Source: Streptomyces aquilus (lineage in GTDB: Bacteria > Actinomycetota > Actinomycetes > Streptomycetales > Streptomycetaceae). From it: 64,000 bases of DNA. Made by a program: the position numbers and the translations under genes. The stretch lies in NCBI RefSeq assembly GCF_003955715.1, contig NZ_CP034463.1, positions 682,001 to 746,000 of the forward strand, given 5' to 3'. Under the pieces are notes generated by a model. That model ran no database searches. It was not told the origin of the DNA and was given only the letters and a program-made list of their open reading frames with translations. This document shows, one piece after another, positions 42,707-64,000 of the stretch. Positions within the stretch are counted from its first letter, which is position 1. Each line of letters opens with the position of its first letter.

Positions 42707-44652
<1,946 letters not shown>

Positions 44653-44656
44653 CCCA

Positions 44657-44689
44657 CGGGCACGGCACCAGCTGCTGGTGCCGTGCCCG
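44657..44689 (+). terminator. Hairpin terminator after GH62
   Basis: 15-bp perfect stem (44657-44671 with 44675-44689) with a 3-nt loop, 5 nt after the stop codon. Confidence 0.85.
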
Positions 44690-44731
44690 CCAACCCGCTG
44701 ATTCAGCTATCACTCGCAAAGAGGACGCCGC

Positions 44732-45844: not shown

Positions 45845-45878
45845 CTCCCGGGGCCTGAGGCGGCTCAGGCCCCGGGAG
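45845..45878. terminator. Bidirectional hairpin terminator
   Basis: 15-bp perfect stem (45845-45859 with 45864-45878) and a 4-nt loop, between the convergent SGNH and GntR genes; it overlaps the GntR stop codon. Confidence 0.85.
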
Positions 45879-46602
45879 AGGCGACGCGTGGGACGGCAGA
45901 CGTCGGACCGGCTTCCCCGGAGCTCAGGTGCACCCGCAGCCACTGCTCGGTGTTGCTCACGTGCATCAGTGCCGCGGCCTGACTGAGGGTGGCATCGCGC
46001 GTGGACAGGGCGTTGAAGATCGCCTCGTGCTCCGCGAGCGTGCGGCCCGCGGCCCGGTCGTCGACCAGACCACGCCAGATGCGGGCCCGCAGGGTGCGGC
46101 CGGAGATCCCTTCGAGGAGGGTGAGGAGGCTTTCGTTGCCGGTGGCCGAGACCACGGCCCGGTGGAATGCTGCGTCGTGGACGTTGAGCTGTTCGACGTC
46201 GTCGCGGGCCTCGCGCATGGCGTCCAGATGCCGCTTCACCTCGGCCAGCTGGTCCTCGGAGATCCGGGTCGCGGCAAGCGCCGTGGCGACCGGTTCCAGG
46301 AGCCGGCGTACCTCCATGAGGTCCTGCAAGGCGGCCGCGTCGCCCTGCAAGAGGTCCACCGCACCACCGAGCCCCTCCAACAGCAGGCTCGGCTGGAGGC
46401 TGGTCACATAGGTGCCGTCGCCTCGCCGGACTTCCAGGACGCGCGCGACGGCCAGCGCCTTGACCGCTTCCCGGGCGAGATTGCGCGACAGTCCCAGCTG
46501 AGCCGCCAGGTCCGGCTCCGGCGGCAGCTTCGAGCCCGGCGGCAGGGCACCGGTCCGGATCAGCTCACGGATCTGCTCGATGGCCTTGTCCGTCAGAGAC
46601 AT
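45865..46602 (-). CDS. GntR/FadR-type repressor of the fucose operon
   Basis: 245 residues from ATG 46600-46602 after GGGAGGG. The N-terminal winged helix (about 5-70: IEQIRELIRTGALPPGSKLP, LAAQLGLSRNLAREAVKALA, RRGDGTYV) is followed by a helical FCD ligand domain (about 85-220) with metal-type residues in AAFHRAVVSATGN and SEHEAI-like LAEHEAIFNAL. It is the last gene of the leftward 12-gene fucose-type operon and overlaps the preceding dehydrogenase gene by 10 bp. Control of the operon from its promoter, with an intermediate such as a fuconate derivative as inducer, is the natural inference. Confidence 0.9.
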   Translation of the reverse strand: MSLTDKAIEQIRELIRTGALPPGSKLPPEPDLAAQLGLSRNLAREAVKALAVARVLEVRRGDGTYVTSLQPSLLLEGLGGAVDLLQGDAAALQDLMEVRRLLEPVATALAATRISEDQLAEVKRHLDAMREARDDVEQLNVHDAAFHRAVVSATGNESLLTLLEGISGRTLRARIWRGLVDDRAAGRTLAEHEAIFNALSTRDATLSQAAALMHVSNTEQWLRVHLSSGEAGPTSAVPRVASPGA

Positions 46603-47606
46603 TGGGCATCCCTCCCCCCACCGTGCCCGGCGAGCACGTCCGACCTGATCAGCCCCTGAGTACGGAGATCTTGCCAGAGACCGTCAGGTACGCGCTGATC
46701 CTTGAGTTTCACGTTCCGTACGACCTGTTCAGCGGTCCGCATGCCGAGGGTGACGTTGATGATACTGGGGTGGGTGTCCGGGAAGGCGATCGCGGCGGCG
46801 GGGAGGGTGGTCCCGTACGCCTCGCAGACGTCGGCGATGGCCCGGGCCCGGGCGACCAGTTCCGGTGGGGCGTCCTGGTAGTCGTATCTCATGCCTTCGG
46901 CGGGCCGGTCGCGGGAGAGCAGTCCGGAGTTGAACACACCGACGGCCACCACGCTCTTGCCGAGTTCCCGTGCGGCGGGCAGGACGTCGTCCAGAGCGGA
47001 CTGGTCCAGGAGGGTGTAGCGGCCGGCGAGCATGACGATGTCGGCGGCGGTCTCGCGCAGGAAGCGGGCCAGCATGGCCGACTGGTTCATGCCCGCGCCG
47101 ATCGCGCCGATCACACCCTGGTCGCGCAGCTCGGCGAGGGCGGGCATGGCCTCTTCGGCGGCTTGGCGCCAGTGGTCGTCGGGGTCGTGCAGATAGACGA
47201 CGTCGAGGCGGTCCAGGCCGGTGCGCGTGAGCGTCTCCTCGACGGAGCGCAGGACGCCGTCGCGGCTGAAGTCCCACTGGCGGCGCAGGTCGTCCCGTAC
47301 GACGAAGCCCTCGGTGTCGACGCCGCGCGGCTCCTCGTTGGGGACGAGGAGCCTGCCCACCTTGGAGGAGATGACGTACTCCTCGCGCGGGCGGTCCCGC
47401 AGGGCGGCGCCCAGGCGGTGTTCGGAAAGGCCGAGGCCGTAGTGGGGTGCGGTGTCGAAGTACCGTATGCCGGCCTGCCAGGCCGCGTCGACGGCGGCCG
47501 TGGCGTCGTCGGCCGGGGTGACGCGGTAGAGGTTGCCGATCACGGACGCGCCGAAGCCGAGCTCGGTGAGGGAGACCGACGTGTGAGGGATCTTCCGCTG
47601 CTGCAA
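46593..47606 (-). CDS. Aldo/keto reductase, probable L-fucose (aldose) 1-dehydrogenase
   Basis: 337 residues starting at TTG 47604-47606, chosen because AGGAG lies 6 nt upstream and no in-frame ATG fits the family start. The catalytic tetrad of AKRs is present: Asp and Tyr in IRYFDTAPHYG, Lys in ISSKVGR, His in VYLHDPDDHW. It belongs to the group that includes bacterial D-threo-aldose/L-fucose 1-dehydrogenases and pyridoxal 4-dehydrogenase. It would oxidise L-fucose to L-fuconolactone with NAD(P). It lies between the sugar kinase and GntR genes in the operon. Confidence 0.85.
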   Translation of the reverse strand: MQQRKIPHTSVSLTELGFGASVIGNLYRVTPADDATAAVDAAWQAGIRYFDTAPHYGLGLSEHRLGAALRDRPREEYVISSKVGRLLVPNEEPRGVDTEGFVVRDDLRRQWDFSRDGVLRSVEETLTRTGLDRLDVVYLHDPDDHWRQAAEEAMPALAELRDQGVIGAIGAGMNQSAMLARFLRETAADIVMLAGRYTLLDQSALDDVLPAARELGKSVVAVGVFNSGLLSRDRPAEGMRYDYQDAPPELVARARAIADVCEAYGTTLPAAAIAFPDTHPSIINVTLGMRTAEQVVRNVKLKDQRVPDGLWQDLRTQGLIRSDVLAGHGGGRDAQCL

Positions 47607-47640
47607 GACGTGCTCCTGGGATACGTGCGATGGGGCGCCG

Positions 47641-48678
47641 TCAGCGTCTGACGTGGGCCGAGCCGCCCGCGAGGAGTGCCTCGACCTCGGCGAGGGTGGC
47701 CATGGAGACGTCTCCGGGGGTGGTCATGACGAGGGCGCCGTGGGCGGTGCCGTAGGCCAGGGCCTGCTGGAGGCCGACGCCGGTGAGCAGGCCGTGGATG
47801 AGGCCGGCGGCGAAGGCGTCGCCGGAGCCGATGCGGTCCAGGACGTGCAGGCCGGGCATGCGGGGGCCGGTGATGACGCCGGTGTCGACGGACCACGCGG
47901 CCGAGGACCAGTCGTTCACCCCGGCCGAGGGCACCTCGCGCAGCGTCGTCGCCAGTACCTTCGCTTCGGGCAGGAGGACGGCGACGCAGGCCAGGGCGTC
48001 GGGTACCTCGTCGGCAGCGACCCGCACGTCGCCCGGACACGTCCCGGCCAGGCCGAGGGCGCCCACCACGACGTCGGCGTGCCGGGCCAGGCGCAGGTCG
48101 ACCTCGCGGGCCGCCTCCGCGCCGCCGCGGCCGGTCCAGAGGCTGGGGCGGTAGTTGGGGTCGTAGGACACGGTGACGCCGTGCCGACGCGCGGCCGCCA
48201 TGGCCTCGTCGGCGACGTCGACGGTGGTGTCCGACAGGCCGGCGAAGATGCCGCCGGTGTGGAACCAGCGCACGCCGGCCGAGAAGACCGCCTCCCAGTC
48301 GACGTCCCCCTTGCGCAGCTGGGAGACGGCGGTGTGGGCGCGGTCGCTGACGCCGAGGGCGCCGCGGATGCCGTAGCCGCGCTCGACGAAGTTGAGGCCG
48401 TTGCGGGCGCCGCGGCCGATGCCGTCGTCGGGCACCCAGCGGATCAGCGAGGTGTCGACGCCGCCCTGGAGGATCAGGTCCTCCACCAGCCGGCCCACCG
48501 CGTTGTCGGCGAGCGCGGTCACGACCGCGGTGCGCAGTCCGAAGCAGCGGCGTAGGCCGCGGACGACGTTGTACTCGCCGCCGCCCTCCCACACCTGGAA
48601 GGTGCGGGCGGTACGGATGCGTCCCTCGCCCGGATCGAAGCGCAGCATCACCTCACCGAGCGCCACCACGTCGGTCAT
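47641..48678 (-). CDS. PfkB-family sugar acid kinase (KDG kinase-like)
   Basis: 345 residues; the ATG overlaps the aldolase stop by 4 bp. Ribokinase-fold features: the N-terminal VVALGEVMLRFDPGEG, the substrate-binding WEGGGEYNVVRGLRR, and the C-terminal anion-hole/catalytic base motif DRIGSGDAFAAGL with Asp. Overall it resembles 2-keto-3-deoxygluconate kinases. Such enzymes phosphorylate the C6 hydroxyl, which a 6-deoxy acid derived from L-fucose lacks. The true substrate may therefore be a related non-deoxy sugar acid, which would widen the substrate range of the operon. Confidence 0.85.
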   Translation of the reverse strand: MTDVVALGEVMLRFDPGEGRIRTARTFQVWEGGGEYNVVRGLRRCFGLRTAVVTALADNAVGRLVEDLILQGGVDTSLIRWVPDDGIGRGARNGLNFVERGYGIRGALGVSDRAHTAVSQLRKGDVDWEAVFSAGVRWFHTGGIFAGLSDTTVDVADEAMAAARRHGVTVSYDPNYRPSLWTGRGGAEAAREVDLRLARHADVVVGALGLAGTCPGDVRVAADEVPDALACVAVLLPEAKVLATTLREVPSAGVNDWSSAAWSVDTGVITGPRMPGLHVLDRIGSGDAFAAGLIHGLLTGVGLQQALAYGTAHGALVMTTPGDVSMATLAEVEALLAGGSAHVRR

Positions 48679-49307
48679 GTCGTGCTCCTGTTCACCGCGT
48701 CGGCGGTCAGCCGGCGGATCTCCTCGTAGTCACCCCGGCCGAGGTGATCGGTGGTGGCCATCCAGCTGCCGCCGACGGCGAGGACCGCGGGCTCGGCCAG
48801 ATAACCGGACAGCTGGGCGGCAGCGATCCCGCCGGTCGGCACGAACCGCGTCCCGGGGAACGGGGCCGCGAGCGCACGCAGTGTGCGCACCCCGCCGAGC
48901 GACTCGGCGGGGAAGAGCTTGACGGTGTCCAGGCCTGCCTTGAGCGCGCGCATCAACTCGGTCGCGGTGGCGACGCCGGGCACGACGGGCACCCCGAGCT
49001 CGCGGCACGTGGCGACGACCTCCTCGTCGAAGCCGGGCGAGACCACGAAGCGGGCCCCGGCCGCCACGGCCCGCTCCGCCTGTGCGGCCGTGAGAACCGT
49101 GCCGGCGCCGACCGTGAGCCCGCCGTGGTCGGCCATCTCCTTGAGCACCTGCTCGGCGTCCGGGGTGCGGAAGGTGACCTCGGCACACCGTGCGCCGCCC
49201 GCCGCGAGCGCGTCGGCCAGCCGGCCGGCGGTCGAGACGGACGGCACCGTGAGGACCGGCATCACACGGGCACCGCCGAGCACGGAGGCCAGGTCGCTGT
49301 CACTCAC
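48675..49307 (-). CDS. KDPG/KHG-type class I aldolase
   Basis: 210 residues from GTG 49305-49307, which overlaps the SDR stop by 4 bp (GTGA); ATG 49319, 12 nt upstream, is the alternative. A small TIM-barrel Eda-type aldolase: Glu and Arg of CAEVTFRTPDA, the GAGTVL strand, and the Schiff-base Lys in DTVKLFPAESLGG. It would cleave a 2-keto-3-deoxy sugar acid (phosphate) to pyruvate plus an aldehyde. For an L-fucose-derived acid the products would be pyruvate and L-lactaldehyde. It sits between the SDR and the kinase. Confidence 0.88.
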   Translation of the reverse strand: MSDSDLASVLGGARVMPVLTVPSVSTAGRLADALAAGGARCAEVTFRTPDAEQVLKEMADHGGLTVGAGTVLTAAQAERAVAAGARFVVSPGFDEEVVATCRELGVPVVPGVATATELMRALKAGLDTVKLFPAESLGGVRTLRALAAPFPGTRFVPTGGIAAAQLSGYLAEPAVLAVGGSWMATTDHLGRGDYEEIRRLTADAVNRSTT

Positions 49308-50065
49308 CGGCCGAGCCATCCGCCGTCGACGGGCAGGGTGACGCCGTGGACGTAGGCGGCCGCGTCCGACGCCAGGAACACGGTGGCGCCGGCGAGGTCG
49401 TCGGCGCTGCCCCAGCGGCCGGCCGGGATACGGTCCAGGATCGCCTTGCTGCGCACCGGGTCGTCCTGGAGGGCCTGGGTGTTGTCGGTGGCGATGTAGC
49501 CCGGCGCGATCGCGTTGACGTTCACGCCGTGCGGGGCCCATTCGTTGGCCAGCGCCTTGGTGAGACCGGCGACGCCGTGCTTGGCGGCGGTGTAGCCGGG
49601 GACAGTGATCCCGCCCTGGAAGCTGAGCAACGACGCCGTGAAGATGACCTTGCCCTGGCCGCGGGCCACCATCGTGGCGCCGACGGCCCGGGTCAGCGCG
49701 AACTGCGCGCTCAGATTGACCTGGAGCACCAACTCCCAGTCCGCGTCGGTGTGTTCGGCGGCCGGGGCGCGGCGGATCGTGCCCGCGTTGTTGACCAGGA
49801 TGTCCACCGGACGCTCCCGTCCGGCGAGGTCGGCGCCCAAGGCACGTACGGCCTCGGGGTCCGCGAAGTCGGTGCGGATCGCCTCGAAGGTGCGGCCCGC
49901 GGCGGTGACGTCCTTCTCCACCGCGCTGCCGGACTCCTCCAGCGAGGCGCTCACCCCGATGACGTCCGCGCCGGCGTCGGCGAGCGCGCGGGCCATGGCC
50001 CGGCCGATGCCGCGGCGGGCGCCGGTGACCACGGCGAGCTTCCCGGTGAGGTCGAAGGCGGTCAT
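49304..50065 (-). CDS. SDR dehydrogenase, KduD / 2-keto-3-deoxy-L-fuconate dehydrogenase-like
   Basis: 253 residues. Classical short-chain dehydrogenase: the cofactor motif TGARRGIGRAMA, NNAGTI, and the catalytic Ser and Tyr-x-x-x-Lys in TASLLSFQGG and YTAAKHG. The C-terminal TLPVDGGWLGR is typical of KduD-like sugar acid dehydrogenases. In the oxidative L-fucose pathway an SDR oxidises 2-keto-3-deoxy-L-fuconate at C4; that fits here. The start overlaps the zinc dehydrogenase stop (ATGA at 50062-50065). Confidence 0.88.
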   Translation of the reverse strand: MTAFDLTGKLAVVTGARRGIGRAMARALADAGADVIGVSASLEESGSAVEKDVTAAGRTFEAIRTDFADPEAVRALGADLAGRERPVDILVNNAGTIRRAPAAEHTDADWELVLQVNLSAQFALTRAVGATMVARGQGKVIFTASLLSFQGGITVPGYTAAKHGVAGLTKALANEWAPHGVNVNAIAPGYIATDNTQALQDDPVRSKAILDRIPAGRWGSADDLAGATVFLASDAAAYVHGVTLPVDGGWLGR

Positions 50066-51105
50066 GCGGTGGCTCCCTCAAGGGTGTCGGTGCAGTCCAC
50101 GAGGATCTTCATCACGTCTCCGCCGCCCTCCAGCGCCTCGAACGCGGCCGGTGCCTGGGTGAGCGGCACGACCTTGCTGATCAGCCGGTCGGCCGGGATC
50201 GTGCCGTCGGCGACCAGGGCCACGGCGTACTCGAAGTCGGAGCGGTCGTACAACCGGGCCCCGACGAGGGTGAGTTCGCGCCAGAAGAAGCGGTGCAGGT
50301 TCACCTCGCGGGGACGGGGGTGGATCGCGACCAGGCACAACCGGCCGCGCACACCCAGGACATCGACGGCGGTGTCCACGCCACCGGCCGCACCGGACAC
50401 CTCGAACGCGACATCCGCGCCCGCGTCCTGGGTCCATGCGGCCACCAGGGCGCCGATGTCGTCCGCGGCCGGGTCCCAGGCGGTCAGCCCCAACTCCCCT
50501 GCCAGCAGCCGCCGGTGGGCGCTGAGCTCCACCACCCGCACCTCCGCGCCGGCCGCGCGGGCGACCAGCGCGATCAGGATGCCGACCGGCCCGCCGCCGA
50601 CCACCACGACCTTCTCGCCCGAGACGACCCGCGCCCGGCCCACGTCGTGCACGGCCACCGCGGTGGGCTCCACCAGCGCGGCCCGGTCCAGAGGCAGCGA
50701 GCCGGGCAGCCGGATGAGCGTGGCGGCCGGCACCGTCCAGCGCTGCTGCATCGCGCCCGGCGAGTCGATCCCGATGAAGTCCAGGTGCTGGCACACATGC
50801 TGATGACCGGCGCGGCAGGCCGGGCAGGTGTCGTCCCAGCGCAGCGGCATCACGGTCACCGCGTCCCCGGGCGCCCAGCCCTCCACCCCGGCGCCCACCC
50901 GCACGATCCGGCCGGACATCTCATGCCCCAACACAGCCGGCGCGGCCACCCGCGCGTCCATGTCGCCGTGGAAGATGTGCAGATCGGTGCCGCAGATACC
51001 GACATAGGCAGGGGCCAACTCCACCTCACCGGGACCGGGCGGCACATCAACCGCGGGAGCCGTGTCCAGGGTGCGGGCGGACGTGTAACGGACGGCGAGA
51101 GTCAT
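50062..51105 (-). CDS. Zinc-dependent medium-chain alcohol/polyol dehydrogenase
   Basis: 347 residues. MDR family: catalytic zinc ligands in GICGTDLHIFHG (Cys) and LGHEMSGRI (His, Glu), and the NAD motif VVVVGGGPVGILIAL. The structural-zinc loop reads DTCPACRAGHQHVC, with one fewer Cys than the usual four, so structural zinc binding may be altered. Members include sorbitol, galactitol and L-threonine dehydrogenases. In this operon it could be a second sugar dehydrogenase or act on the aldehyde product. It overlaps both neighbours by 4 bp. Confidence 0.87.
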   Translation of the reverse strand: MTLAVRYTSARTLDTAPAVDVPPGPGEVELAPAYVGICGTDLHIFHGDMDARVAAPAVLGHEMSGRIVRVGAGVEGWAPGDAVTVMPLRWDDTCPACRAGHQHVCQHLDFIGIDSPGAMQQRWTVPAATLIRLPGSLPLDRAALVEPTAVAVHDVGRARVVSGEKVVVVGGGPVGILIALVARAAGAEVRVVELSAHRRLLAGELGLTAWDPAADDIGALVAAWTQDAGADVAFEVSGAAGGVDTAVDVLGVRGRLCLVAIHPRPREVNLHRFFWRELTLVGARLYDRSDFEYAVALVADGTIPADRLISKVVPLTQAPAAFEALEGGGDVMKILVDCTDTLEGATA

Positions 51106-51539
51106 CGTGTGGTCAGGGTCCCTTCAGCGCGGACGCCGATCGTCAGCAGCAGGTTGGCGTAGGTACGGGTGTCGGCGGTGACGACGGCCAGCGCCAGGTC
51201 GGGCGAGCGGGCGGCGTCGTAGAACTCGTAGCGCCCCAGCGTGTCGACCGGGACGGGCGCCAGCCTCTTGCGGTAGTCCGCGATGGCCGGAGGCTCCGGT
51301 TCGCCCTCGGGCGGCACCATCACCTGGGCGGCCTCGACGGGCAGGGCGCGCAGCAGGACGTCGAGGACGGTGGTGACGTCCAGCAGGCCGGGGGCGAGGT
51401 TGAGGTGGACGGTCCTGGCACGCCCGCCGGTGGCGGTGCTGGCCGGGTAGTGACCGTCGGCGAGCAGGACACGGGCCCCGTGGCCGGCCCCGGCCAGGGC
51501 TTCGAGGATGCCGGGGTGGAGCAGTTCCGTCAGAAGCAT
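51102..51539 (-). CDS. fucU: RbsD/FucU-family L-fucose mutarotase
   Basis: 145 residues from ATG 51537-51539; the start overlaps the lactonase stop and the end overlaps the dehydrogenase start. The hallmark residues are present: the N-terminal His in LLHPGILEALAGAGHG, VLLADGHYPAST, and the C-terminal Tyr/Asn region TRTYANLLLTIGV. FucU interconverts the alpha and beta anomers of L-fucose, supplying the anomer used by the 1-dehydrogenase. Its presence is one of the better indicators that the operon handles L-fucose. Confidence 0.88.
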   Translation of the reverse strand: MLLTELLHPGILEALAGAGHGARVLLADGHYPASTATGGRARTVHLNLAPGLLDVTTVLDVLLRALPVEAAQVMVPPEGEPEPPAIADYRKRLAPVPVDTLGRYEFYDAARSPDLALAVVTADTRTYANLLLTIGVRAEGTLTTR

Positions 51540-52432
51540 TCGGTCCCCTCCTTCGTGGGGGCGGGGGTCAGGCGGTAGAAGGTGGTGGCGGTGCCGACGA
51601 GCACCGCGTGGATCTCGGTGGCGGAACAGCCGGTGAGGAGTTCGTCGACGGTGGCGGCCCAGCGGTTCCATCCGCCCGCGAGGTTCGCCACCGGCCAGTC
51701 GGAACCGAACATCAGCCGGTCGGGACCGAAGGCGGAGAGCAGCACGTCCCACACCGGGCGGATGTCGTCGACCGTCCACTTCTCGTGGTCGGCCTCGGTG
51801 ATCAGTCCCGAGACCTTGCAGCGGACTTGGGAGTGCCGGGCCAGCGCCCGCAACTGCTGTTCCCAATCGGCCAGTTCCCGCCGTGCGATGGGGGGCTTGC
51901 CCGCGTGGTCCAGGACCAGCGGCAGCTCGGGGAGCCGCTGCGCGAGGCGGATCGCCTGCGGAAGCTGGTGGGGGCCGATCAGAACGTCGTATCCCAGGCC
52001 GCGCTCCCCGACCGCCCGCAACCCGCGCTCGACGTCGGGTCGTTGGAGCCAGTGCGGGTCCGACTCGGCCTGTACGAGGTGCCGTACGGCCCGCAGGTAG
52101 CCGCCCGCGTTCCCGCTGCGCAGGTCGTCGAGTACGTCACCGATCGCGGGTGACGTCAGGTCCGCCCAGCCGACGACGGCGCCGATCAGCGGATCGCTGT
52201 CCGCCAGTGCGAGCAGGTCGCGGGTCTCGGGCACGGACGCGATGCACTGGACGACCACCGTGCTGGTCAGTCGCCGTCCGGCGATCGGCCGGGTCGCGGC
52301 CGATCGCAGGGCGTGCGCGCTGAACGTGCGGCGGATCGGGTCGTGGGCGGGCTCGTCCAGCCAGGGCTGTGGCCGCACCTCCAGGTCCCAGACGTGGTGG
52401 TGGGCGTCGACGAGGGCCTGTGCGTCAGGCAC
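51530..52432 (-). CDS. Amidohydrolase, probable L-fuconolactonase
   Basis: 300 residues from GTG 52430-52432, overlapping the dehydratase stop by 8 bp. Amidohydrolase_2 TIM barrel: the metal motif VDAHHHVWD, the strand [12 protein letters not shown], and the terminal [11 protein letters not shown]sp. This is the fuconolactonase/PDC-lactonase subgroup of COG3618, which opens L-fucono-lactone to L-fuconate without necessarily needing a metal. It sits between the fuconate dehydratase and fucU genes, exactly where the pathway needs it. Confidence 0.9.
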
Positions 52433-53759
52433 GGGCGGTCCAGACGGGGCCGCCGGGGTAGGCGTACTCCTTGAGCGAGGCGGCGTGCATCTGCGCGCTC
52501 AGTCCGGGCAGCGTCGGCGCGAGGTAGTGGCCGTCGACGATGCGTACCGGGTCGACGAAGTGCTCGTGCAGATGGTCGACGTACTCGATGACGCGGTCCT
52601 CGGTGGTGCCGGAGACGGCGACGTAGTCGAACATCGACAGGTGCTGGACCATCTCGCACAGGCCCACTCCGCCGGCGTGCGGGCAGACCGGGACGCCGAA
52701 CTTCGCGGCGAGGAGCAGGATCGCGATGTTCTCGTTGACGCCGCCGACCCGCGCGGAGTCGATCTGGACGATGTCCACCGCGCCGGCCTGGAGGAGCTGC
52801 TTGAAGACGACCCGGTTGGCGATGTGCTCGCCGGTGGCGACCTTGATGGGGCTGACGGCCTTGCGTACGGCGGCGTGGCCGAGGATGTCGTCGGGTGAGG
52901 TGGGCTCCTCGATCCAGTACGGCTGGTAGGGGGCCAGGGCGCTCATCCAGTCGATGGCGGGCTGGACGTCCCACCGCTGGTTGGCGTCCACCGCGATGCG
53001 GATGCCGTCGCCGACCGTCTCGCGGGCGGTGCGCATGCGCCGTACGTCGTCCTCCAGGTCCGCGCCGACCTTCAGCTTGATCTGGGTGAAGCCGTCGGCG
53101 ACGGCCTCGCGGGCCAGGCGGGCGAGCTTCTCGTCGGAGTAGCCGAGCCAGCCGGGGGTGGTGGTGTAGGCGGGGTAGCCCTTCTCGAGGAGCTGGGCGG
53201 TGCGCTCGGCGCGGCCGGGTTCGGCGTGGCGCAGGATCTCCAGGGCGTCTTCGGGGGTGAGGGCGTCGGACAGCCAGCGGAAGTCGACCTGGGCGACGAG
53301 CTCTTCGGGCGACATCTCGGCGAGGAACCGCCACACGGGCTTGCCGGCCCGCTTGGCGGCGAGGTCCCAGGCGGCGTTGACGACGGCGCCGGTCGCCATG
53401 TGGATGGCGCCCTTCTCCGGGCCGAGCCAGCGCAGTTGGGGGTCGTGGACGAGGGAGTTGGAGAACGCGCCGAGGTCGGCGCAGACCTCGTGGACCGACA
53501 GGCCCACCACATGCGGGGCGAGGGCCGCGATGGCGGCGGCCTGGACATCGTTGCCGCGGCCGGTGGTGAACGCCAGGGCGTGGCCCTCCAGTCCGTCGCC
53601 GGCGTCGGTGCGCAGGACCACGTAGGCGGCGGAGTAGTCGGGTTCGGGGTTCATCGCGTCCGACCCGTCCAGGTGCTCGGACGTCGGGAACCGTACGTCC
53701 AGGACGTCCAGGGCGGTGATGCGGGCTGAGGAAGGAGAGGAGGACAGGGCGGATGACAT
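52425..53759 (-). CDS. L-fuconate dehydratase (enolase superfamily)
   Basis: 444 residues from ATG 53757-53759 after AGGAG. Mandelate-racemase/muconate-lactonising fold: the Lys base in [12 protein letters not shown], metal ligands in [10 protein letters not shown], the Glu of [11 protein letters not shown], the TGEH segment, and the His in [12 protein letters not shown]. The N-terminal [20 protein letters not shown] segment is characteristic of L-fuconate dehydratases. It converts L-fuconate to 2-keto-3-deoxy-L-fuconate. First catabolic gene after the permease, 93 bp away. Confidence 0.93.
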
Positions 53760-53852
53760 GGCGGCAACTCCTGGAAGAGCAGGGGCTGGTACGGCCCGTG
53801 CGACGAGACGGCGGTACGGCGGAGGGCGGGCGGCCGGCGACGGCCGCCCGGG

Positions 53853-54896
53853 TCACTCCTGGACTTTGCCGCCGGTGATGCGGGAGATGGCGAGGGCGAC
53901 GAGGATGATCAGGCCGTTGAGGGCGCCGATCCACTGGGCGGGGACGCCGCCCAGGGTCAGCACGTTCTGGATCATGAAGAGCAGCAGGATGCCGCAGAAC
54001 GCGCCGAACATGGTGCCTTTGCCGCCGTTGAGGCTGATCCCGCCGATGACGGCGGCCGCGAACACGGTGAAGATGTAGCCGTTGCCCTGTGCCGAGGCGA
54101 CGGAGGCCAGTCGGCCGGAGAGCAGCAGTCCGGCGAGGGCGGCGAGCACGCTGCCGGTGACGATGACGATCCACAGCACCCGGTCGGTGCGGATGCCGGC
54201 GGCCTTGGCCGCGTCGACGTTGCCGCCGATGGCGTACAGCGAGCGTCCGAAGCTCGTCCAGCCGAGGACGACGATCGCGACGGCGAACAGCGCCAGGCAG
54301 ATCCAGATCGAGGCGGGCATGCCGAGCCACTGTGCGGTGCCGAGGTAGAGCATCGACTCCGGCAGCTGGAAGAAGGTCTGGCCGCCGGAGATGCCGGTGA
54401 GGACGCCGCGCACGACGATCAGCATGCCCAGGGTGACGATGAACCCGTTGAGGCCGAAGCGGATGATGAGCAGGGCGTTGATCACACCGATGAGCGCGCC
54501 CACGGCGAGGGTGATGGGAATGGCCAATGCGCCGGGGAGCAGTCCGAGGCCGTGGGTCGCGCCGGTCGGCACCACCAGCCAGGCCGCGACACCGGGCGCG
54601 AGGCCCATGGTGGACTCCAGCGACAGGTCCATCTTCCCGACGATCAGGACCATGGTCTGGGCGAGGACCAGCAGGGCGATCTCGGACATGGTCTGGAGGA
54701 CGTTGATGAGGTTGTCGGTCTGGAGGAAGACGGGGTTGACGATCTGTCCGACGACGGCGATGACCACGATGGCCGGGACGAGCGCGAGGTCGCGCAGTCG
54801 GGCCAGGGGTATCCGGCCGCCGAACAGTGCGGCGTGCTTGGGCCGCGGGGCATCCGGGGCTTTGGCGGCGGTGTCCGCGACGACGGTCTCAGGCAT
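53853..54896 (-). CDS. Sugar ABC transporter permease (RbsC/XylH family)
   Basis: 347 residues from ATG 54894-54896, overlapping the ATPase gene by 8 bp. An N-terminal ~30-residue cytoplasmic extension, then eight to ten membrane helices, with the family motif GKMDLSLESTMGLAPG and the C-terminal GGISLNGGKGTMFGAFCGIL block. It forms the channel of a CUT2-type sugar importer. Encoded between its ATPase and the fuconate dehydratase, so L-fucose or related 6-deoxyhexoses are the expected cargo. Confidence 0.92.
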   Translation of the reverse strand: MPETVVADTAAKAPDAPRPKHAALFGGRIPLARLRDLALVPAIVVIAVVGQIVNPVFLQTDNLINVLQTMSEIALLVLAQTMVLIVGKMDLSLESTMGLAPGVAAWLVVPTGATHGLGLLPGALAIPITLAVGALIGVINALLIIRFGLNGFIVTLGMLIVVRGVLTGISGGQTFFQLPESMLYLGTAQWLGMPASIWICLALFAVAIVVLGWTSFGRSLYAIGGNVDAAKAAGIRTDRVLWIVIVTGSVLAALAGLLLSGRLASVASAQGNGYIFTVFAAAVIGGISLNGGKGTMFGAFCGILLLFMIQNVLTLGGVPAQWIGALNGLIILVALAISRITGGKVQE

Positions 54897-56451
54897 GCAG
54901 GTCCACTCCTTCCATCGCGGCCACGAGGTCGTGGTCGTGCCAGCCGCGGGCGATCTCTGAGGTCACTCGGCCCTGGAACATCACCAGGACCCGGTCGCAC
55001 ATGCGCAGGTCGTCGAGTTCGTCGGAGGCGATGAGCACTCCGGTGCCGGTTTCCGCGGTCTCCTCGACCTTGCCGAGGAGGAACTCCTTGGAGCGCACGT
55101 CCACGCCCGCGGTCGGGTTGATCAGGACCAGCAGCTTCGGGTCGTCGGCCAGGGCGCGGGCCATGACCACCTTCTGCTGGTTGCCGCCGGACAGGGCGGA
55201 GACGGGCAGGTCGGGGCCGGGAGTCTTGATCGCCAGGTGCTCGATCATGCCTTCGGCGAGCCGGTCGCGGCGACTGCGGCTCAGGAACCCGTTGTTGCCC
55301 AGCTTCTTGGGCACCGACAGGGTGGCGTTGTCGGCGATCGACATGTCGGGGACGAAGCCCTGATGGTGCCGGTCCTGCGGGACGAACCCGGCGCCGGCGG
55401 CGAGCGCGGCCGGCACGCTGCCGAGCCGGGGCCGGTTGCCGGCGATCTCCACCTCCCCCGCCGTGGGCGCCCGCAGTCCTACGACGGTCTCGGCGACCTC
55501 GGTCCGGCCGCTGCCCGCGGCCCCCGCGAGGCCGACGATCTCTCCGGCGCCCACCTGGAATGTGACACCTTGATAGGTCTCGCCCTCCAGGCCGCTGACG
55601 CCGAGGGCCGCCGTGGCACCGGCGTCCAGTGAACTCGCCCGTTCCTCGCGGCTGTCGGCGGCGGCCTCGCCGGTCATGGCGGCGACGAGTTCGGTACGGG
55701 GGAGCTCGGCGACCGGCGCGGTCACGATGTGCCGGGCGTCCCGGAACACGGTCACCATGTCGCAGATCTCGTAGACCTCCTGGAGGTGGTGACTGATGAA
55801 CAGGAAGGTCACGCCCTGCCGTTGGAGGTCACGGATGCGGTCGAAGAGCCGGTTGATGGCCGCGCCGTCGAGCTGGGCGGTCGGCTCGTCGAGGATGATG
55901 AACCGGGCGCCGAAGGACAGGGCCCGGGCGATCTCCACGAACTGCCGCTGCTCCACGCTGAGGTCACCGGCCGGGGTCTGCGGATCCACGTCCACCGACC
56001 ACGTCGACAGCAGCTCCTGTGCCCGGCGGCGCACCCCCTGCCAGCTGATCAGCGGGCCGCGGGCGCGATCGTGCCGGTTCAGGAAGAGGTTCTCGGCCAC
56101 GGTCAGCGTGGGGATGATCGTCGACTTCTGGTAGACGCACGCCACCCGCCGGCGCCAGGCGTCGCGGTCGGCGAGCCGTGGTGCGGGGCTGCCGCCGAAG
56201 GTGACCGTTCCCTCGTCGGCGGCCTGGAGTCCGGTGAGGACGGACACCAGGGTCGACTTGCCCGCTCCGTTGCGGCCGACGAGCGCGTGGGTCTCGCCGG
56301 GCCTGATGGTGATCCCGGCGCCGTTGAGAGCCACCGTCGGACCGTATCGCTTGACTATGCCCGCCGCTTCGACGACGGGCAGGCCCGCGTGGGCCTGGCC
56401 GTCGTCCGCCGGGGCGGGCGCGGGGGTGGCTGTTCGCTCCCCGTCACTCAT
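54889..56451 (-). CDS. Sugar ABC transporter ATPase (RbsA/XylG family, two NBDs)
   Basis: 520 residues from ATG 56449-56451. The first nucleotide-binding domain has an intact Walker A (GRNGAGKST), signature (DLSVEQRQ) and Walker B (FIILDEPTAQLD). The second has a degenerate Walker A (GAAGSGRTEV, as in RbsA) and, more unusually, a Walker B reading VLINPTAGVD, where both acidic residues of LDEPT are lost. One catalytic site probably does the hydrolysis. CUT2 family importer subunit; it follows the binding-protein gene after 44 bp and overlaps the permease gene. Confidence 0.92.
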   Translation of the reverse strand: MSDGERTATPAPAPADDGQAHAGLPVVEAAGIVKRYGPTVALNGAGITIRPGETHALVGRNGAGKSTLVSVLTGLQAADEGTVTFGGSPAPRLADRDAWRRRVACVYQKSTIIPTLTVAENLFLNRHDRARGPLISWQGVRRRAQELLSTWSVDVDPQTPAGDLSVEQRQFVEIARALSFGARFIILDEPTAQLDGAAINRLFDRIRDLQRQGVTFLFISHHLQEVYEICDMVTVFRDARHIVTAPVAELPRTELVAAMTGEAAADSREERASSLDAGATAALGVSGLEGETYQGVTFQVGAGEIVGLAGAAGSGRTEVAETVVGLRAPTAGEVEIAGNRPRLGSVPAALAAGAGFVPQDRHHQGFVPDMSIADNATLSVPKKLGNNGFLSRSRRDRLAEGMIEHLAIKTPGPDLPVSALSGGNQQKVVMARALADDPKLLVLINPTAGVDVRSKEFLLGKVEETAETGTGVLIASDELDDLRMCDRVLVMFQGRVTSEIARGWHDHDLVAAMEGVDLHA

Positions 56452-56495
56452 CGCAACCGCCTTGTGTTGGATAGCCGTTGGGTTCAGAAGAGCTG

Positions 56496-57557
56496 TCAGC
56501 CGAGGTTGTTGCCCCACAGCGACTTGTCGCCGCTCTTCACGCTGGGCACCCCGCCGTAGGTGCCGCCGTCGGCGGTGACCAGCGGCGCGGACAGCTGGTC
56601 CTCCAGCACACCCTCACGGACCTGGATGATCGTGCTGTCGTGATCGGTCTTGCCGGGCTTGAACGTCTTCCCGTCGATCGCGGCCTTCAGGTAGTACAGC
56701 GCGTACTTGGCATAGAGGTCGGCCGGCTGCGAGACGGTGGCGTCGATCTTGCCCGCGGCGATGTCCTTGAGCTCCTCGGGGATGCCGTCGTTGGAGACGA
56801 TGAAGACGTGCTTCTTGTCCTTGGGGTCGACCAGCAGGCCCTTCTGCTTGAGGACCTGGAGCGTGCCGGACAACGCGAAGCTGGACTGCATGTAGACGCC
56901 CTTGATGTCCGGGTGGGCGGTCAGGTCCGTCTGGAGCTTCTGCGCGGCGACGGCGCCGTCCCAGTTGGTGGCCTCACCGAACACCTTGATGTCCGGGTAG
57001 TTCTTCTTCATGCAGTCGTTGAACGCCTCGGTACGGTCACGCCCGTTGATGGAGTCCAGGCCGCCCTGGAGCATGACGACCTTGCCCTTGCCGCCCAGCT
57101 TGGTGCCGAGGTACTGGCAGGCCTTCTCGCCGTACGCGCGGTTGTCGGCGCGCACCACCATGAACACCTTGCCGGTGTCGGGGCGGGTGTCCACGGTGAC
57201 GACCGGGATCTTCTTCGCCTCCAGCTGCGCCAGCGTCGGCGCGATGGCGGCGGTGTCCTGCGGGGCCATCGCCAGGCCCTTGACGCCCTGGCTGATGAAC
57301 GTCTGCGCGTTGGCCGTCAGCTTGGCGACGTCGTTCTGCGAGTTGGTGGTCTTCAGGTCCAGCCCCAGCTCCTTGGCGTACTGGGGGGTGTACTTGATGT
57401 ACGAGTTCCAGAAGTCGGTGTCGGAGCGCGGGTAGTCGACGCCGACCAGCGGCTTGTCGCTCGACGAGGACGAGGTGGAGCCGCTGCCGCACGCAGTGAG
57501 CAGTGCCAGTGCGGACAGGGTAGATACTGCGGAACAGAGGGCTGTCCTGAGTCTCAT
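56496..57557 (-). CDS. Sugar-binding lipoprotein of ABC transporter
   Basis: 353 residues from ATG 57555-57557 after GAGGAA. The lipobox LTAC is followed by a Gly/Ser linker. Periplasmic-binding-protein-like domain of the RbsB/peripla_BP_4 type: VGVDYPRSDTDFWNSYIKY, TNSQNDVAKLTANAQTFISQ, VDTRPDTGKVFMVVRADN, VFIVSNDGIPEELKDI. It is the extracellular receptor of the importer and the first gene of the 12-gene operon. The promoter and a perfect palindrome lie directly upstream. Confidence 0.92.
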   Translation of the reverse strand: MRLRTALCSAVSTLSALALLTACGSGSTSSSSSDKPLVGVDYPRSDTDFWNSYIKYTPQYAKELGLDLKTTNSQNDVAKLTANAQTFISQGVKGLAMAPQDTAAIAPTLAQLEAKKIPVVTVDTRPDTGKVFMVVRADNRAYGEKACQYLGTKLGGKGKVVMLQGGLDSINGRDRTEAFNDCMKKNYPDIKVFGEATNWDGAVAAQKLQTDLTAHPDIKGVYMQSSFALSGTLQVLKQKGLLVDPKDKKHVFIVSNDGIPEELKDIAAGKIDATVSQPADLYAKYALYYLKAAIDGKTFKPGKTDHDSTIIQVREGVLEDQLSAPLVTADGGTYGGVPSVKSGDKSLWGNNLG

Positions 57558-57641
57558 CGGTGCTTCCTCGCGCCGGTCCCGTAGCGGGAGATGTTTCGCC
57601 TCGACGACATCTGCGTATCGCCGTTCAGCAGAGATGGGATG

Positions 57642-57671
57642 TTTATAGGCCTGCCTCTGCCGCACTGTCCA
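57642..57671 (-). promoter_or_regulatory. Probable promoter of the fucose operon
   Basis: On the minus strand, TGGACA (57666-57671) and TATAAA (57642-57647) are separated by 18 bp. Transcription would start near 57635, giving a leader of about 78 nt before the binding-protein gene. Confidence 0.55.
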
Positions 57672-57680
57672 GACCCTTGC

Positions 57681-57701
57681 GGCACTTCATGGAGAAGTGC
57701 C
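57681..57701. promoter_or_regulatory. Palindromic operator upstream of the fucose operon promoter
   Basis: GGCACTTC-ATGGA-GAAGTGCC, perfect 8-bp arms, 10 bp upstream of the -35 element. A likely binding site for the operon's GntR regulator. Confidence 0.6.
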
Positions 57702-57843
57702 AGCTCACTTCACGCGACAAGGACAAGTGCAGGCCAGATCCATCCCATCAATCATCATCGCTGGCCAAGCGGATCCAGCCACGAGGAGCCTGGCAGACAT
57801 GCCATGTTTAAGCCCTGGAGAATCACAGCAAAGCCCCACAAAA

Positions 57844-57872
57844 GGGTTAAAACCCCTGAAGCGCCAGCGCTT
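57844..57872. promoter_or_regulatory. Two adjacent palindromes upstream of GH29
   Basis: GGGTT-AA-AACCC (57844-57855) and AAGCGC-CA-GCGCTT (57859-57872). A TTGACA follows at 57891 toward the fucosidase gene, without a good -10. They lie in a 454-bp divergent region (57558-58011), AT-rich for this genome, in which I see no gene. Confidence 0.45.
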
Positions 57873-58011
57873 TTCATCCCTGCACACTGGTTGACATCCC
57901 CAGGAGACATGGCGGACCTTCGTCCGTAACAAGTGGCGCTCCGCGCACAGGAGTTACGCCCCCTTGTGTTCTCAGCTCTCCCCCTCCCCCCTCTGCAACA
58001 GGGATGTCTCC

Positions 58012-60243
58012 ATGCCGAGTTCGTTCAACAGACGCCACTTCCTGGCCGGCGCCACCGGTGTGGCCGCAGCTGCCGTCGCCGGAGGGATCTTCGGCTCCGG
58101 CACCGCTCAGGCGGCGCCCAGCACCTACACGCCCGACTGGAACTCAGTCGACCAGCACCCGCCGGCTCCGGAGTGGTTCCAGGACGCGAAGTTCGGGATC
58201 TACTTCCACTGGGGAGTCTTCAGCGTCCCGGCCTACGACAACGAGTGGTACCCGCGCAACATGTACCAGTCGGGCAGCAACGCCAACCAGCACCACATCG
58301 CGACCTACGGCCAGCCCGCGGCGTGGCCGTACCACAACTTCATCAACGGCGCCCAGGACCTCGCGGGCAACTTCGTGAAGTTCGCGCCGAAGCTGAAGTC
58401 GGCCGGCGGCAAGTTCGACCCCGACGAGTGGGCGCAGCTCTTCGTCGACGCCGGCGCCAAGTTCGCCGGGCCGGTCGCCGAGCACCACGACGGCTTCTCC
58501 ATGTGGAACAGCCAGGTCAACGAGTGGAACTCGGTGAACAAGGGCCCCGGCCTCGACCTCCTGCAACTCTTCACCACCGCCATCCGCGCCAAGAACCTCA
58601 AGCTGCTGGTGGCCATGCACCACGCGTACAACTTCACCGGCTTCTACCAGTACGCCCCCGCCCAGACGGACGCCAGCCTCAAGAAGCTCTACGGGCAGCT
58701 CGGCGCGACCGCGGAGAACCAACTCTGGTACGACAAGCTCAAGGAGGTCATCGACCGCGCCCAACCCGACATCCTGTGGCAGGACTTCAACCTGAGCGCC
58801 GTCGACGAAGCGCAGCGCCTGAAGTTCCTGTCCTACTACTACAACCAGGCCAACAGCTGGGGCCGTGAGGTCGTCGCCACCTACAAGGACGGGTTCAACG
58901 GCAAGGGCGAGGTCTTCGACTACGAGCGCGGCGGCCCGGCCGATCTCACCACCCCGTACTGGCTGACCGACGACAGCATCTCCAGCAGCAGTTGGTGCTA
59001 CACCCAGGGCATCGGCTACTACAGCATCCCGCAGATGCTGCACTCGTTCATCGACCGGGTCAGCAAGAACGGCAACATGCTGCTGAACATCGCGCCCATG
59101 GCGGACGGCACCATCCCCCAGGCGCAGAAGGACATCCTGCTGGGCATCGGTGACCATCTGAAGCGCTTCGGCGAGTCGATCTACGCGACCCGCGCCTGGA
59201 CCGAGTACGGCGAGGGTCCGACGAAGATGGGCGGCGGCTCGTTCACCACCCCGCACGCCGGCACCGCGCAGGACATCCGCTTCACCCGCAACAAGGCCGG
59301 CAACGTCCTGTACGCCACCGTCCTGGGCTGGCCCGGCAGCTCCCTCACGATCAAGACCCTTTCCTCGGACCGCATCAATCTCTCGTCGCTGTCCTCGGTG
59401 AAGCTCCTCGGCACCACGGCCGGCACCTACATCGACCTCCCCGCTCCGGCCCAGAGCTCCTCCGGCCTCACGGTCACCCTGCCGTCCTCGGCGCCCTACA
59501 GTGCGAACGCGTACGTCCTCAAGCTCACCTTCTCCGGCACGATCCCGGCGCTCCAGCCGCTCGGCGGAGCGGTCGCCTTCGCGGACGTCAACTACACCGG
59601 AACCTCTGCGGTGCTCCCCCTCGGCGACTACACCACGGCCGGCCTCACCTCGGCCGGGCTCGGCGCGGGCAGCATCTCCTCCCTCCGGCCGGCCCCCGGC
59701 TACCAGGTGATCGGATACTCCGGGGACAACTTCAGTGGCACCGCCTGGACCTTCACCGCCGCTAACCCAGACCTGCGCGTCACCGGCAACAACGACCAGA
59801 TCGCCTCCCTGCGGGTCCAGTTCAACCCGGCGACGTACTTCCGGCTCACCAACGCCACCAACGGGCTCGCCCTGGACAGCGGCGGCAACGTCGCCTCCGG
59901 GTCCAACCTCAAGCAGTGGACCTGGGACGGCAGCACCAACCTCCAGTGGCGCGCGGAGGCGCTCGACGGCGGCTACTACCGGCTGGTCAACCGGACCAAC
60001 GGCATGGTCGCGGACGGCTGGGGCGCCACCGCCAACGGCGATCCGGCCCGCCAGGCAGCCTGGAACGGCGGCAGCAATCAGCAGTGGAAGATCGTCGCCC
60101 GCGGCGGCAACCGCTACTCGATCGCCAACCGCACCACCGGCCTGGTCCTCGACGGCGGCGGCGACGTCGCATCGGGCTCCGTCACCAAGCAGTGGACGTA
60201 CGACGGCAGCAGCAACCTGCTATGGGTCTTCACCGCGCAGTGA
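58012..60243 (+). CDS. Secreted GH29 alpha-L-fucosidase with crystallin-like and beta-trefoil domains
   Basis: 743 residues from ATG 58012. A Tat signal (NRRHFLAGATG) ends at AQAAP. The GH29 barrel (about 40-400) shows FGIYFHWGVFSVPAYDNEWY, AEHHDGFSMWNS and the probable nucleophile Asp258 in DILWQDFNLS; a C-terminal beta-sandwich follows. Then a beta/gamma-crystallin-like domain (about 520-600: GYQVIGYSGDNFSGTAWTF) and a ricin-type beta-trefoil (about 605-743). It would cleave fucosyl residues from plant or fungal glycans outside the cell and feed the divergent ABC/fucose operon. Confidence 0.93.
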   Translation: MPSSFNRRHFLAGATGVAAAAVAGGIFGSGTAQAAPSTYTPDWNSVDQHPPAPEWFQDAKFGIYFHWGVFSVPAYDNEWYPRNMYQSGSNANQHHIATYGQPAAWPYHNFINGAQDLAGNFVKFAPKLKSAGGKFDPDEWAQLFVDAGAKFAGPVAEHHDGFSMWNSQVNEWNSVNKGPGLDLLQLFTTAIRAKNLKLLVAMHHAYNFTGFYQYAPAQTDASLKKLYGQLGATAENQLWYDKLKEVIDRAQPDILWQDFNLSAVDEAQRLKFLSYYYNQANSWGREVVATYKDGFNGKGEVFDYERGGPADLTTPYWLTDDSISSSSWCYTQGIGYYSIPQMLHSFIDRVSKNGNMLLNIAPMADGTIPQAQKDILLGIGDHLKRFGESIYATRAWTEYGEGPTKMGGGSFTTPHAGTAQDIRFTRNKAGNVLYATVLGWPGSSLTIKTLSSDRINLSSLSSVKLLGTTAGTYIDLPAPAQSSSGLTVTLPSSAPYSANAYVLKLTFSGTIPALQPLGGAVAFADVNYTGTSAVLPLGDYTTAGLTSAGLGAGSISSLRPAPGYQVIGYSGDNFSGTAWTFTAANPDLRVTGNNDQIASLRVQFNPATYFRLTNATNGLALDSGGNVASGSNLKQWTWDGSTNLQWRAEALDGGYYRLVNRTNGMVADGWGATANGDPARQAAWNGGSNQQWKIVARGGNRYSIANRTTGLVLDGGGDVASGSVTKQWTYDGSSNLLWVFTAQ

Positions 60244-62993: not shown

Positions 62994-64000
<1,007 letters not shown>

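Follow-up and report, generated by a model that had tools for sequence, protein, structure and literature searches.

A probable L-galactose operon of Streptomyces aquilus, with an L-fucose-type upper half and an agar-type lower half

The lower route for 2-keto-3-deoxy-L-galactonate (L-KDGal) in agar degraders is reportedly described in Lee et al. (2014). In this route C5 of L-KDGal is oxidised by a dehydrogenase of the medium-chain dehydrogenase/reductase (MDR) family (EC 1.1.1.389), a KduD-type reductase (EC 1.1.1.127) yields 2-keto-3-deoxy-D-gluconate (D-KDG), and KDG kinase and 2-keto-3-deoxy-6-phosphogluconate (KDPG) aldolase follow, as set out in passages of two papers (PMC5943477, PMC10163077). 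L-Fucose route 3 (Xanthomonas, Herbaspirillum) uses a mutarotase, a 1-dehydrogenase, a lactonase and a FucD-type dehydratase, and is completed by a 2-keto-3-deoxy-L-fuconate (KDF) 4-dehydrogenase and a diketo-fuconate hydrolase. For L-galactose, work on Acidovorax by Watanabe et al. (2019) is said to have concerned the D-altronate route. In the L-galactose route of Luteolibacter (LguA-E), inversion of C5 precedes dehydration, and the enzymes include a D-tagaturonate reductase and an altronate dehydratase, according to a section of PMC12632266. Bacterial breakdown of L-galactose is treated in few papers of the literature searched. Described here is a twelve-gene operon of Streptomyces aquilus, located in a window of 64,000 nucleotides (contig NZ_CP034463.1, positions 682,001 to 746,000; all coordinates below are those of the window). 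It is probably for the most part an L-galactose operon, with an upper half of L-fucose type and a lower half for L-KDGal. Four things were observed: the gene content, the gene families, the relatedness of the dehydrogenase pair to that of an agar-type cluster, and the linkage of the lower module to one FucD paralogue only. This paralogue is called FucD-B, and the one encoded elsewhere in the genome FucD-A.

All twelve genes (45865-57557) are on the minus strand, in the transcription order sugar-binding lipoprotein, ATPase, permease, FucD, lactonase, FucU, zinc dehydrogenase, KduD-type short-chain dehydrogenase/reductase (SDR), aldolase, kinase, aldo/keto reductase (AKR) and GntR/FCD regulator. 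Neighbouring genes overlap by 4 to 10 bases at eight of the eleven junctions (ATPase/permease, FucD/lactonase, lactonase/FucU, FucU/zinc dehydrogenase, zinc dehydrogenase/KduD, KduD/aldolase, aldolase/kinase and AKR/GntR); gaps are found at lipoprotein/ATPase (44 bases), permease/FucD (93) and kinase/AKR (34). The twelve-gene, mostly overlapping unit outlined earlier from the letters alone (the sequence-only reading) is thus present. Families were assigned with hidden Markov models (HMMs) for the nine non-importer genes, and the three importer genes were named by eye from the sequence. The gene set is not a chance one, since it recurs at 28 of the 35 loci of the genus with this type of FucD. 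The genes, the divergent neighbour and the region between them are as follows.

56496..57557, minus strand: sugar-binding lipoprotein of an ABC importer (open reading frame with ATG start; named by eye; position conserved)
54889..56451, minus strand: ABC importer ATPase (open reading frame with ATG start; named by eye; position conserved)
53853..54896, minus strand: ABC importer permease (open reading frame; named by eye; position conserved)
52425..53759, minus strand: FucD-B, L-fuconate-dehydratase family, proposed L-galactonate dehydratase (PDB 1yey; clade apart from FucD-A)
51530..52432, minus strand: sugar 1,5-lactonase, amidohydrolase (NF052480 below cut-off; PF04909)
51102..51539, minus strand: FucU/RbsD-type mutarotase (PF05025, 89.9 bits; ATG start)
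50062..51105, minus strand: zinc MDR dehydrogenase, proposed L-KDGal 5-dehydrogenase (PF08240, PF00107; Zobellia clade)
49304..50065, minus strand: KduD-type SDR, proposed reductase of 2,5-diketo-3-deoxygalactonate to D-KDG (TIGR01832; PDB 4hp8, 4z9y)
48675..49307, minus strand: KDPG aldolase (TIGR01182 above cut-off; aligned to 1eua)
47641..48678, minus strand: PfkB kinase, proposed KDG kinase (PF00294; PDB 2afb)
46593..47606, minus strand: AKR, proposed L-galactose/L-fucose 1-dehydrogenase (PF00248; start codon uncertain)
45865..46602, minus strand: GntR/FCD regulator (PF00392, PF07729)
58012..60243, plus strand: divergent secreted glycoside hydrolase of family 29 (GH29) with a ricin-type lectin domain (PF01120, PF14200; the open reading frame opens at 57964)
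57558..58011, no strand: control region common to operon and GH29 gene (alignment of the window and 21 homologues)

The operon has the same four families as the lower part of the agar-degrader 3,6-anhydro-L-galactose pathway, its two dehydrogenase genes are adjacent, and its zinc dehydrogenase shares a clade with one of Zobellia. Its L-KDGal, however, would come from L-galactonate through a FucD-type dehydratase, whereas agar degraders form it from anhydro-L-galactonate through a cycloisomerase. Neither an anhydro-L-galactose dehydrogenase (aldehyde dehydrogenase family) nor a cycloisomerase is among the nine scanned operon genes, where the FucD-like gene is the sole one of enolase type; no search for them was made in the rest of the genome. 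With L-fucose route 3 the operon shares mutarotase, 1-dehydrogenase, lactonase and FucD-type dehydratase, but it has no KDF 4-dehydrogenase-like SDR and no diketo-fuconate hydrolase. Members of the FAH and DHDPS/NAL families are lacking among the nine scanned genes, and the earlier statement that the operon holds no FAH hydrolase stands for these. Route 1 of L-fucose breakdown employs a KDF aldolase of DHDPS/NAL type. The operon, like route 1, would end in aldol cleavage of a 2-keto-3-deoxy acid; unlike route 1 it has a KDPG aldolase (PF01081/TIGR01182) with its own kinase, and no KDF aldolase was found. The Luteolibacter D-altronate route has in common with the operon the L-galactose dehydrogenase, a C5 inversion by two dehydrogenases, KDG and KDPG aldolase, but neither a D-tagaturonate reductase nor an altronate dehydratase is among the nine scanned genes. 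The searched literature, which left subscription papers mostly outside, gave no account of an upper half of L-fucose type combined with an L-KDGal lower half. Both halves are known; their combination, the linkage with one FucD paralogue and the two-branch clusters described below appear to be new.

The SDR scored 334.5 bits against the KduD model TIGR01832, just below the cut-off of 338.85, and its two best PDB matches (4hp8, 4z9y) were deposited as 2-deoxy-D-gluconate 3-dehydrogenase; this likeness had been overlooked in the sequence-only reading. No KDF 4-dehydrogenase SDR was found in the operon, and that identity was rejected for the operon SDR, which is of KduD type. As the SDR is KduD-like, it and the zinc dehydrogenase are therefore regarded as one two-step unit. 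The dehydrogenase lies beside a KduD-type SDR and belongs to the same clade as in agar-type clusters: in a midpoint-rooted MDR tree the enzymes of the window and of a Zobellia locus (L282) fall in one KduD-linked clade with support 0.94. KduD adjoins the dehydrogenase at 60 of 68 loci with at least 44% identity (two of the 60 being Zobellia loci fetched via KduD) versus none of 25 below. Short rows and rows with a stop were left out of the MDR and FucD trees, and identical sequences also of the latter. Agar-type dehydrogenase and KduD were matched to PDB 1E3J and 4Z9Y in a passage of PMC10163077, and both entries are also among the matches of the zinc dehydrogenase and SDR of the window. The homologue search gave generic names only among the 120 matches listed. 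Close relatives of the zinc dehydrogenase are named butanediol dehydrogenase, bacteriochlorophyllide dehydrogenase and even molecular chaperone GroES, names that are probably misannotations.

At the family level, the KDG kinase and KDPG aldolase of the agar-type lower module are present as well. The aldolase (PF01081, KDPG/KHG family) scored 226.2 bits against TIGR01182 (Eda; cut-off 156.05) and aligns end to end with the KDPG aldolase 1eua, with the stretches EVTxRT, GAGTVL, KxFPAE, PTGGI and GGSW retained, which we take to have catalytic and phosphate-binding roles. The closest solved structure to the kinase is 2-keto-3-deoxygluconate kinase 2afb (E 9.5e-41); its best NCBIfam match is a KDPG-aldolase/kinase fusion family, with 221.1 bits over the kinase half against a full-length cut-off of 700. 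One earlier proposal was that the aldolase splits unphosphorylated KDF into pyruvate and L-lactaldehyde, the zinc dehydrogenase then handling the aldehyde. An aldolase ending of the fucose pathway does exist (route 1, in a passage of PMC11199699), but the aldolase here is of the phosphate-dependent KDPG type with its motifs kept, a KDG-type kinase adjoins it, and FucD-A loci carry another SDR instead (42 of 42). The zinc dehydrogenase groups with the partners of agar-type KduD and was rejected as a lactaldehyde enzyme on this ground. The proposal retains almost no credence.

The upper enzymes are of L-fucose type. FucD-B matches L-fuconate dehydratase 1yey, presumably from Xanthomonas, with E 1.7e-209. 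The lactonase is an amidohydrolase of the L-fucono-1,5-lactonase type (NF052480, 187.1 bits, E 4.9e-55, below the cut-off of 400), and both the FucD-type dehydratase and the lactonase of L-fucose route 3 are present in the operon. Five PDB sequences match the AKR at E 1e-20 or better, and all are called L-galactose dehydrogenase. L-Fuconate has the same C2-C4 configuration as L-galactonate, D-arabinonate and D-altronate. That the latter three share it is stated in part of PMC6336799, and according to passages of two sources (PMC13406643, PMC6336799) L-fucose, D-arabinose and L-galactose are all substrates of an AKR from a related cluster. L-Galactose is favoured because, among the matching sugars, it alone combines a C6 hydroxyl for the kinase with an L-configured C5 that needs inversion to reach D-KDG. 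D-Altronate would need neither dehydrogenase to become D-KDG.

Each substrate and reaction of the proposed route is deduced from sequence. The ABC importer would bring the sugar in, FucU would mutarotate it, the AKR would oxidise L-galactose to L-galactono-1,5-lactone and the amidohydrolase would open this to L-galactonate. FucD-B would dehydrate L-galactonate to L-KDGal. The zinc dehydrogenase would then oxidise C5 of L-KDGal and the KduD-type SDR would reduce it to D-KDG, a net inversion of C5. Phosphorylation of the C6 hydroxyl of D-KDG by the PfkB kinase and cleavage by the KDPG aldolase would yield pyruvate and D-glyceraldehyde 3-phosphate. The divergent GH29 enzyme may supply the sugar from plant or algal glycans. 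The upper enzymes may take L-fucose too, and its acid could pass to the second FucD locus and an unlinked hydrolase. The predicted L-galactose route has no gaps. It would give a specific answer to the question why a fucose-like operon contains a KDG-type kinase, and would predict a substrate for a protein family named in databases only as zinc-dependent alcohol or butanediol dehydrogenase. The sequence-only reading had held that such a kinase should not act on a 6-deoxy acid, which chemistry supports, and its second option, a non-deoxy sugar such as L-galactose degraded through the kinase, fits best. The lower half, with agar-type pair, kinase and KDPG aldolase, does not resemble a fucose pathway.

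The linkage to one paralogue was seen in a survey of the genus. With a limit of E 1e-100, FucD matches were obtained in 40 of the 396 genomes surveyed from the phylum and in 248 of 392 genomes of the genus. FucD-B, at 82% identity or more, accounts for 35 loci of the genus in 34 genomes, the next among the matches listed (77%) being FucD-A, and all 35 matches were examined with their contexts. The 42 FucD-A loci are a selected sample, 40 from the matches listed (mostly large contigs) plus L014 and L115. Of the 35 FucD-B loci, 28 have the four lower genes within 9 kb, 28 a window-type GH29 (58012-60243) and 30 FucU; a KDF-dehydrogenase-like SDR and a FAH were found at none. At the FucD-A loci the picture is reversed: the KDF-dehydrogenase-like SDR was present at 42 of 42, a FAH within 9 kb at 21, and lower genes, FucU and window-type GH29 at none. 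A fucose operon that had lost its hydrolase was rejected as an explanation, as FucD-B was linked to FAH or a KDF-dehydrogenase-like SDR at 0 of 35 loci. The zinc dehydrogenase occurs in 39 of the 392 genomes (32 at 83% identity or more, 7 at 58-62%); of the genomes with FucD-B, 28 of 34 carry its 83% group, versus 4 of the 358 that lack FucD-B (Fisher P 9e-33, a nominal value because the genomes are related and no kinship correction was applied). In the FucD tree FucD-B and FucD-A form separate clades, and 17 alignment columns separate them (35 and 41 sequences). Xanthomonas FucD has the A residue at 13 of these columns, the B residue at 3 and neither at 1. Two of the columns lie within SEHLDGS (FucD-B of the window) versus SRELDGS, a stretch that we assume to be the specificity loop of the capping domain.

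The pair is also found in other lineages. Eighty named loci were kept (of 581), and in many of these the dehydrogenase/KduD pair is located beside FucD-like or other enolase-type genes in Streptomyces, Micromonospora, Arthrobacter, Microbacterium, Botrimarina and Rhodobacterales; at the Chloroflexi loci the enolase-type gene is on the opposite strand, about 4 kb from the pair. In the FucD tree the dehydrogenase accompanies FucD in the main B clade, in Micromonospora and at L125, L149b and L180, which suggests that the two were joined repeatedly; several deep nodes of this tree are weak (0.11-0.74). A few actinobacteria have both lower branches in one cluster. L184 has one same-strand row of FucD, lactonase, FucU, dehydrogenase, KduD, aldolase, kinase, FAH, SDR and AKR. 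At L148 and L150 the two branches are accompanied by an enolase-type gene that is only 29-32% like FucD. L093 likewise holds the two branches, lacks FucD in the stretch and gives only a partial match to the SDR. L143 shows dehydrogenase, KduD, FAH, SDR and AKR, with no aldolase or kinase before the contig end, and L162 ends inside its FAH. Such two-branch clusters would be expected if a single promiscuous upper pathway supplied both a 6-deoxy branch and a 6-hydroxy one. KduD, KDG kinase and KDPG aldolase are known to handle a uronate-derived 2-keto-3-deoxy acid in pectin breakdown, and these genes might serve such an acid independently of the fucose-type genes; FucD-B without the module exists and a GH62 gene is nearby. 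This is very improbable, as the zinc dehydrogenase would be left unexplained, no KduI or uronate enzyme is among the nine scanned operon genes, and several branches of the FucD tree contain FucD relatives that have the pair as neighbour.

Streptomyces also has clusters with lactonase, zinc dehydrogenase, KduD and AKR in which no FucD was found in the stretch (L112-L114, L116, L117 and L120-L123). Aldolase and kinase are present in L112, L114, L116, L120, L122 and L123, and both are absent from L113, L117 and L121. L117 carries a large secreted protein with a GH141 insertion domain and a ricin domain, and L112 a protein without Pfam match. In Rhodobacterales and Ahrensia (L167, L171, L172, L175, L179) an enolase-type gene (27-29% to FucD), a zinc dehydrogenase and KduD lie side by side, some with an ABC importer; these loci perhaps represent an algal sugar route of the same kind.

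KduD loci were fetched from two Zobellia genomes. At L282 an MDR dehydrogenase and KduD, 44% and 62% identical to those of the window, lie side by side, and an aldehyde dehydrogenase gene and one of the enolase superfamily belong to the same row on the same strand; the gene ahead of the pair is a GH117 by eye and a partial GH43 match by Pfam. Zobellia uliginosa L197 (7205-17571) has in one row GH29, an MDR dehydrogenase, a UxaA/GarD-family dehydratase, a tagaturonate reductase and a lactonase-like gene, together with an SDR, a transporter and a mutarotase-like gene (by eye or weak identity). From its genes it is a probable L-galactose locus of the D-altronate kind, and it holds both the D-tagaturonate reductase and the altronate dehydratase lacking among the scanned operon genes. 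A scan of genome contigs with the SCO3480 primer (PMC9706016) for the Streptomyces coelicolor agar cluster gave no match. In a rival order of steps for the same sugar, inversion of C5 by the pair would come first, turning L-galactonate into D-altronate by way of D-tagaturonate, and FucD-B would dehydrate D-altronate directly to D-KDG. This order is reported for L-galactose in Luteolibacter (in the section of PMC12632266 noted above), and the residual activity of Xanthomonas FucD covers both D-altronate and L-galactonate (in a passage of PMC13406643). The reductase of the operon, however, is of KduD type and not a tagaturonate reductase; in agar-type clusters L-KDGal is the direct product of the cycloisomerase (in part of PMC9706016), so that the pair there can act only once L-KDGal has been made; and L197, with a tagaturonate reductase, has a dehydrogenase more distant from that of the window (33%). 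Inversion ahead of dehydration is thus considered distinctly unlikely, and inversion of L-KDGal is preferred.

A genome search for a FAH hydrolase had been proposed in the sequence-only reading, and it yielded an unlinked diketo-deoxy-sugar-acid hydrolase and, in addition, a second FucD locus with a different SDR. FucD-A, 74% identical, is at 8.86 Mb. Its locus has a separate GntR, binding protein, permease and AKR, and an SDR of non-KduD type; neither lactonase nor FAH is within 9 kb. The PF01557 search gave eleven FAH-family places in the genome. Gene calls were inspected around all of them (nine stretches), and one protein, at 4.27 Mb, was taken into further comparison. Its matches include L-2,4-diketo-3-deoxyrhamnonate hydrolase 8gsr (E 2.3e-81) and NF053535 (353.2 bits, cut-off 500), and it is unlinked to the operon. 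The sole PDB match of the second-locus SDR at E 1e-45 or better is 4dqx, a 'probable oxidoreductase', and it scores below cut-off with all 25 NCBIfam models shown. The SDR is labelled KDF-dehydrogenase-like, a weak label unproven by any model, because its family lies beside FucD at 42 of 42 loci, with FAH within 9 kb at 21, and because of its arginine spacing. Arginines are found at positions 141, 184 and 207 in 46, 44 and 45 of 46 sequences, a spacing of 43 and 23, close to the 44 and 22 of Arg148, Arg192 and Arg214 in L-KDF dehydrogenase (in a passage of PMC11199699). With its SDR and the 4.27 Mb hydrolase, the second locus is therefore a candidate for ordinary fucose breakdown outside the operon, and this breakdown probably runs there. 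A FAH used for fucose would be compatible with L-galactose as the main substrate of the operon.

Several points weigh against L-galactose as that substrate. The scores of KduD, lactonase and kinase are all below curated cut-offs. Seven of the 35 FucD-B loci are without the lower module; L102 and L225 are cut by contig ends, but L095, L103, L107, L111 and L226 are uncut, and the first four retain importer and GH29, so FucD-B can work without the module. The lower module is also found at loci that lack FucD (L112 and others). Among solved structures, the GH29 enzyme has two fucosidases as its best relatives; an exo-alpha-L-galactosidase ties for the next rank, at a far lower score. Xanthomonas FucD prefers L-fuconate, with its residual activity extending to D-arabinonate, and the Xanthomonas KDF dehydrogenase takes L-KDGal too, both according to passages of PMC13406643; for the latter reason L-galactose could run through the other branch. 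The fucosidase kinship, the five uncut loci, a second FucD in 31 of the 34 FucD-B genomes and the single row of L184 would all suit an operon for two sugars, with L-fucose the main substrate of importer, GH29 and upper enzymes and the lower genes only rescuing co-entering L-galactose, while the second locus and the unlinked hydrolase finish the fucose acid. This is judged unlikely, given that FucD-B is never linked to a KDF-dehydrogenase-like SDR or FAH, nor window-type GH29 to FucD-A.

A further-reaching form of the L-galactose reading is held only tentatively: a dedicated actinobacterial system, in which FucD-B would be a true L-galactonate dehydratase split from L-fuconate dehydratase, the agar-type pair would invert C5 after dehydration, and the linked GH29 would be an alpha-L-galactosidase, or an L-galactose-tolerant enzyme, harvesting the sugar from plant cell walls. 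If true, it would be an L-galactose route separate from the D-altronate route, with a fucose half and an agar half joined, perhaps more than once. The findings suggest a dedicated L-galactose route in soil actinobacteria, and warn that FucD clusters should not be read as L-fucose pathways before the lower module has been checked.

The divergent GH29 gene had been left out of the unit in the sequence-only reading. It is separated from the operon by 454 bases. Here a palindrome, ACATNCCATGT, is conserved at 57797-57807, and ACATGCCATGT half-sites and several GGGATG/CATCCC boxes (57630-57641, 57738-57752, 57872-57885, 57999-58006) are kept at 90% or more in the alignment. When palindromes with up to 2 mismatches were counted in the control region, no one of them occurred in more than 11 of 24 sequences, although the alignment showed the conserved boxes. 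Palindrome and boxes are putative operators. The window is rich in plant-cell-wall enzymes (43039-45838, 32434-33720, 62994-63998), among them a GH62 with a ricin domain, an alpha-galactosidase family protein and, by eye, an SGNH-type esterase with a ricin domain and a GH10-like xylanase.

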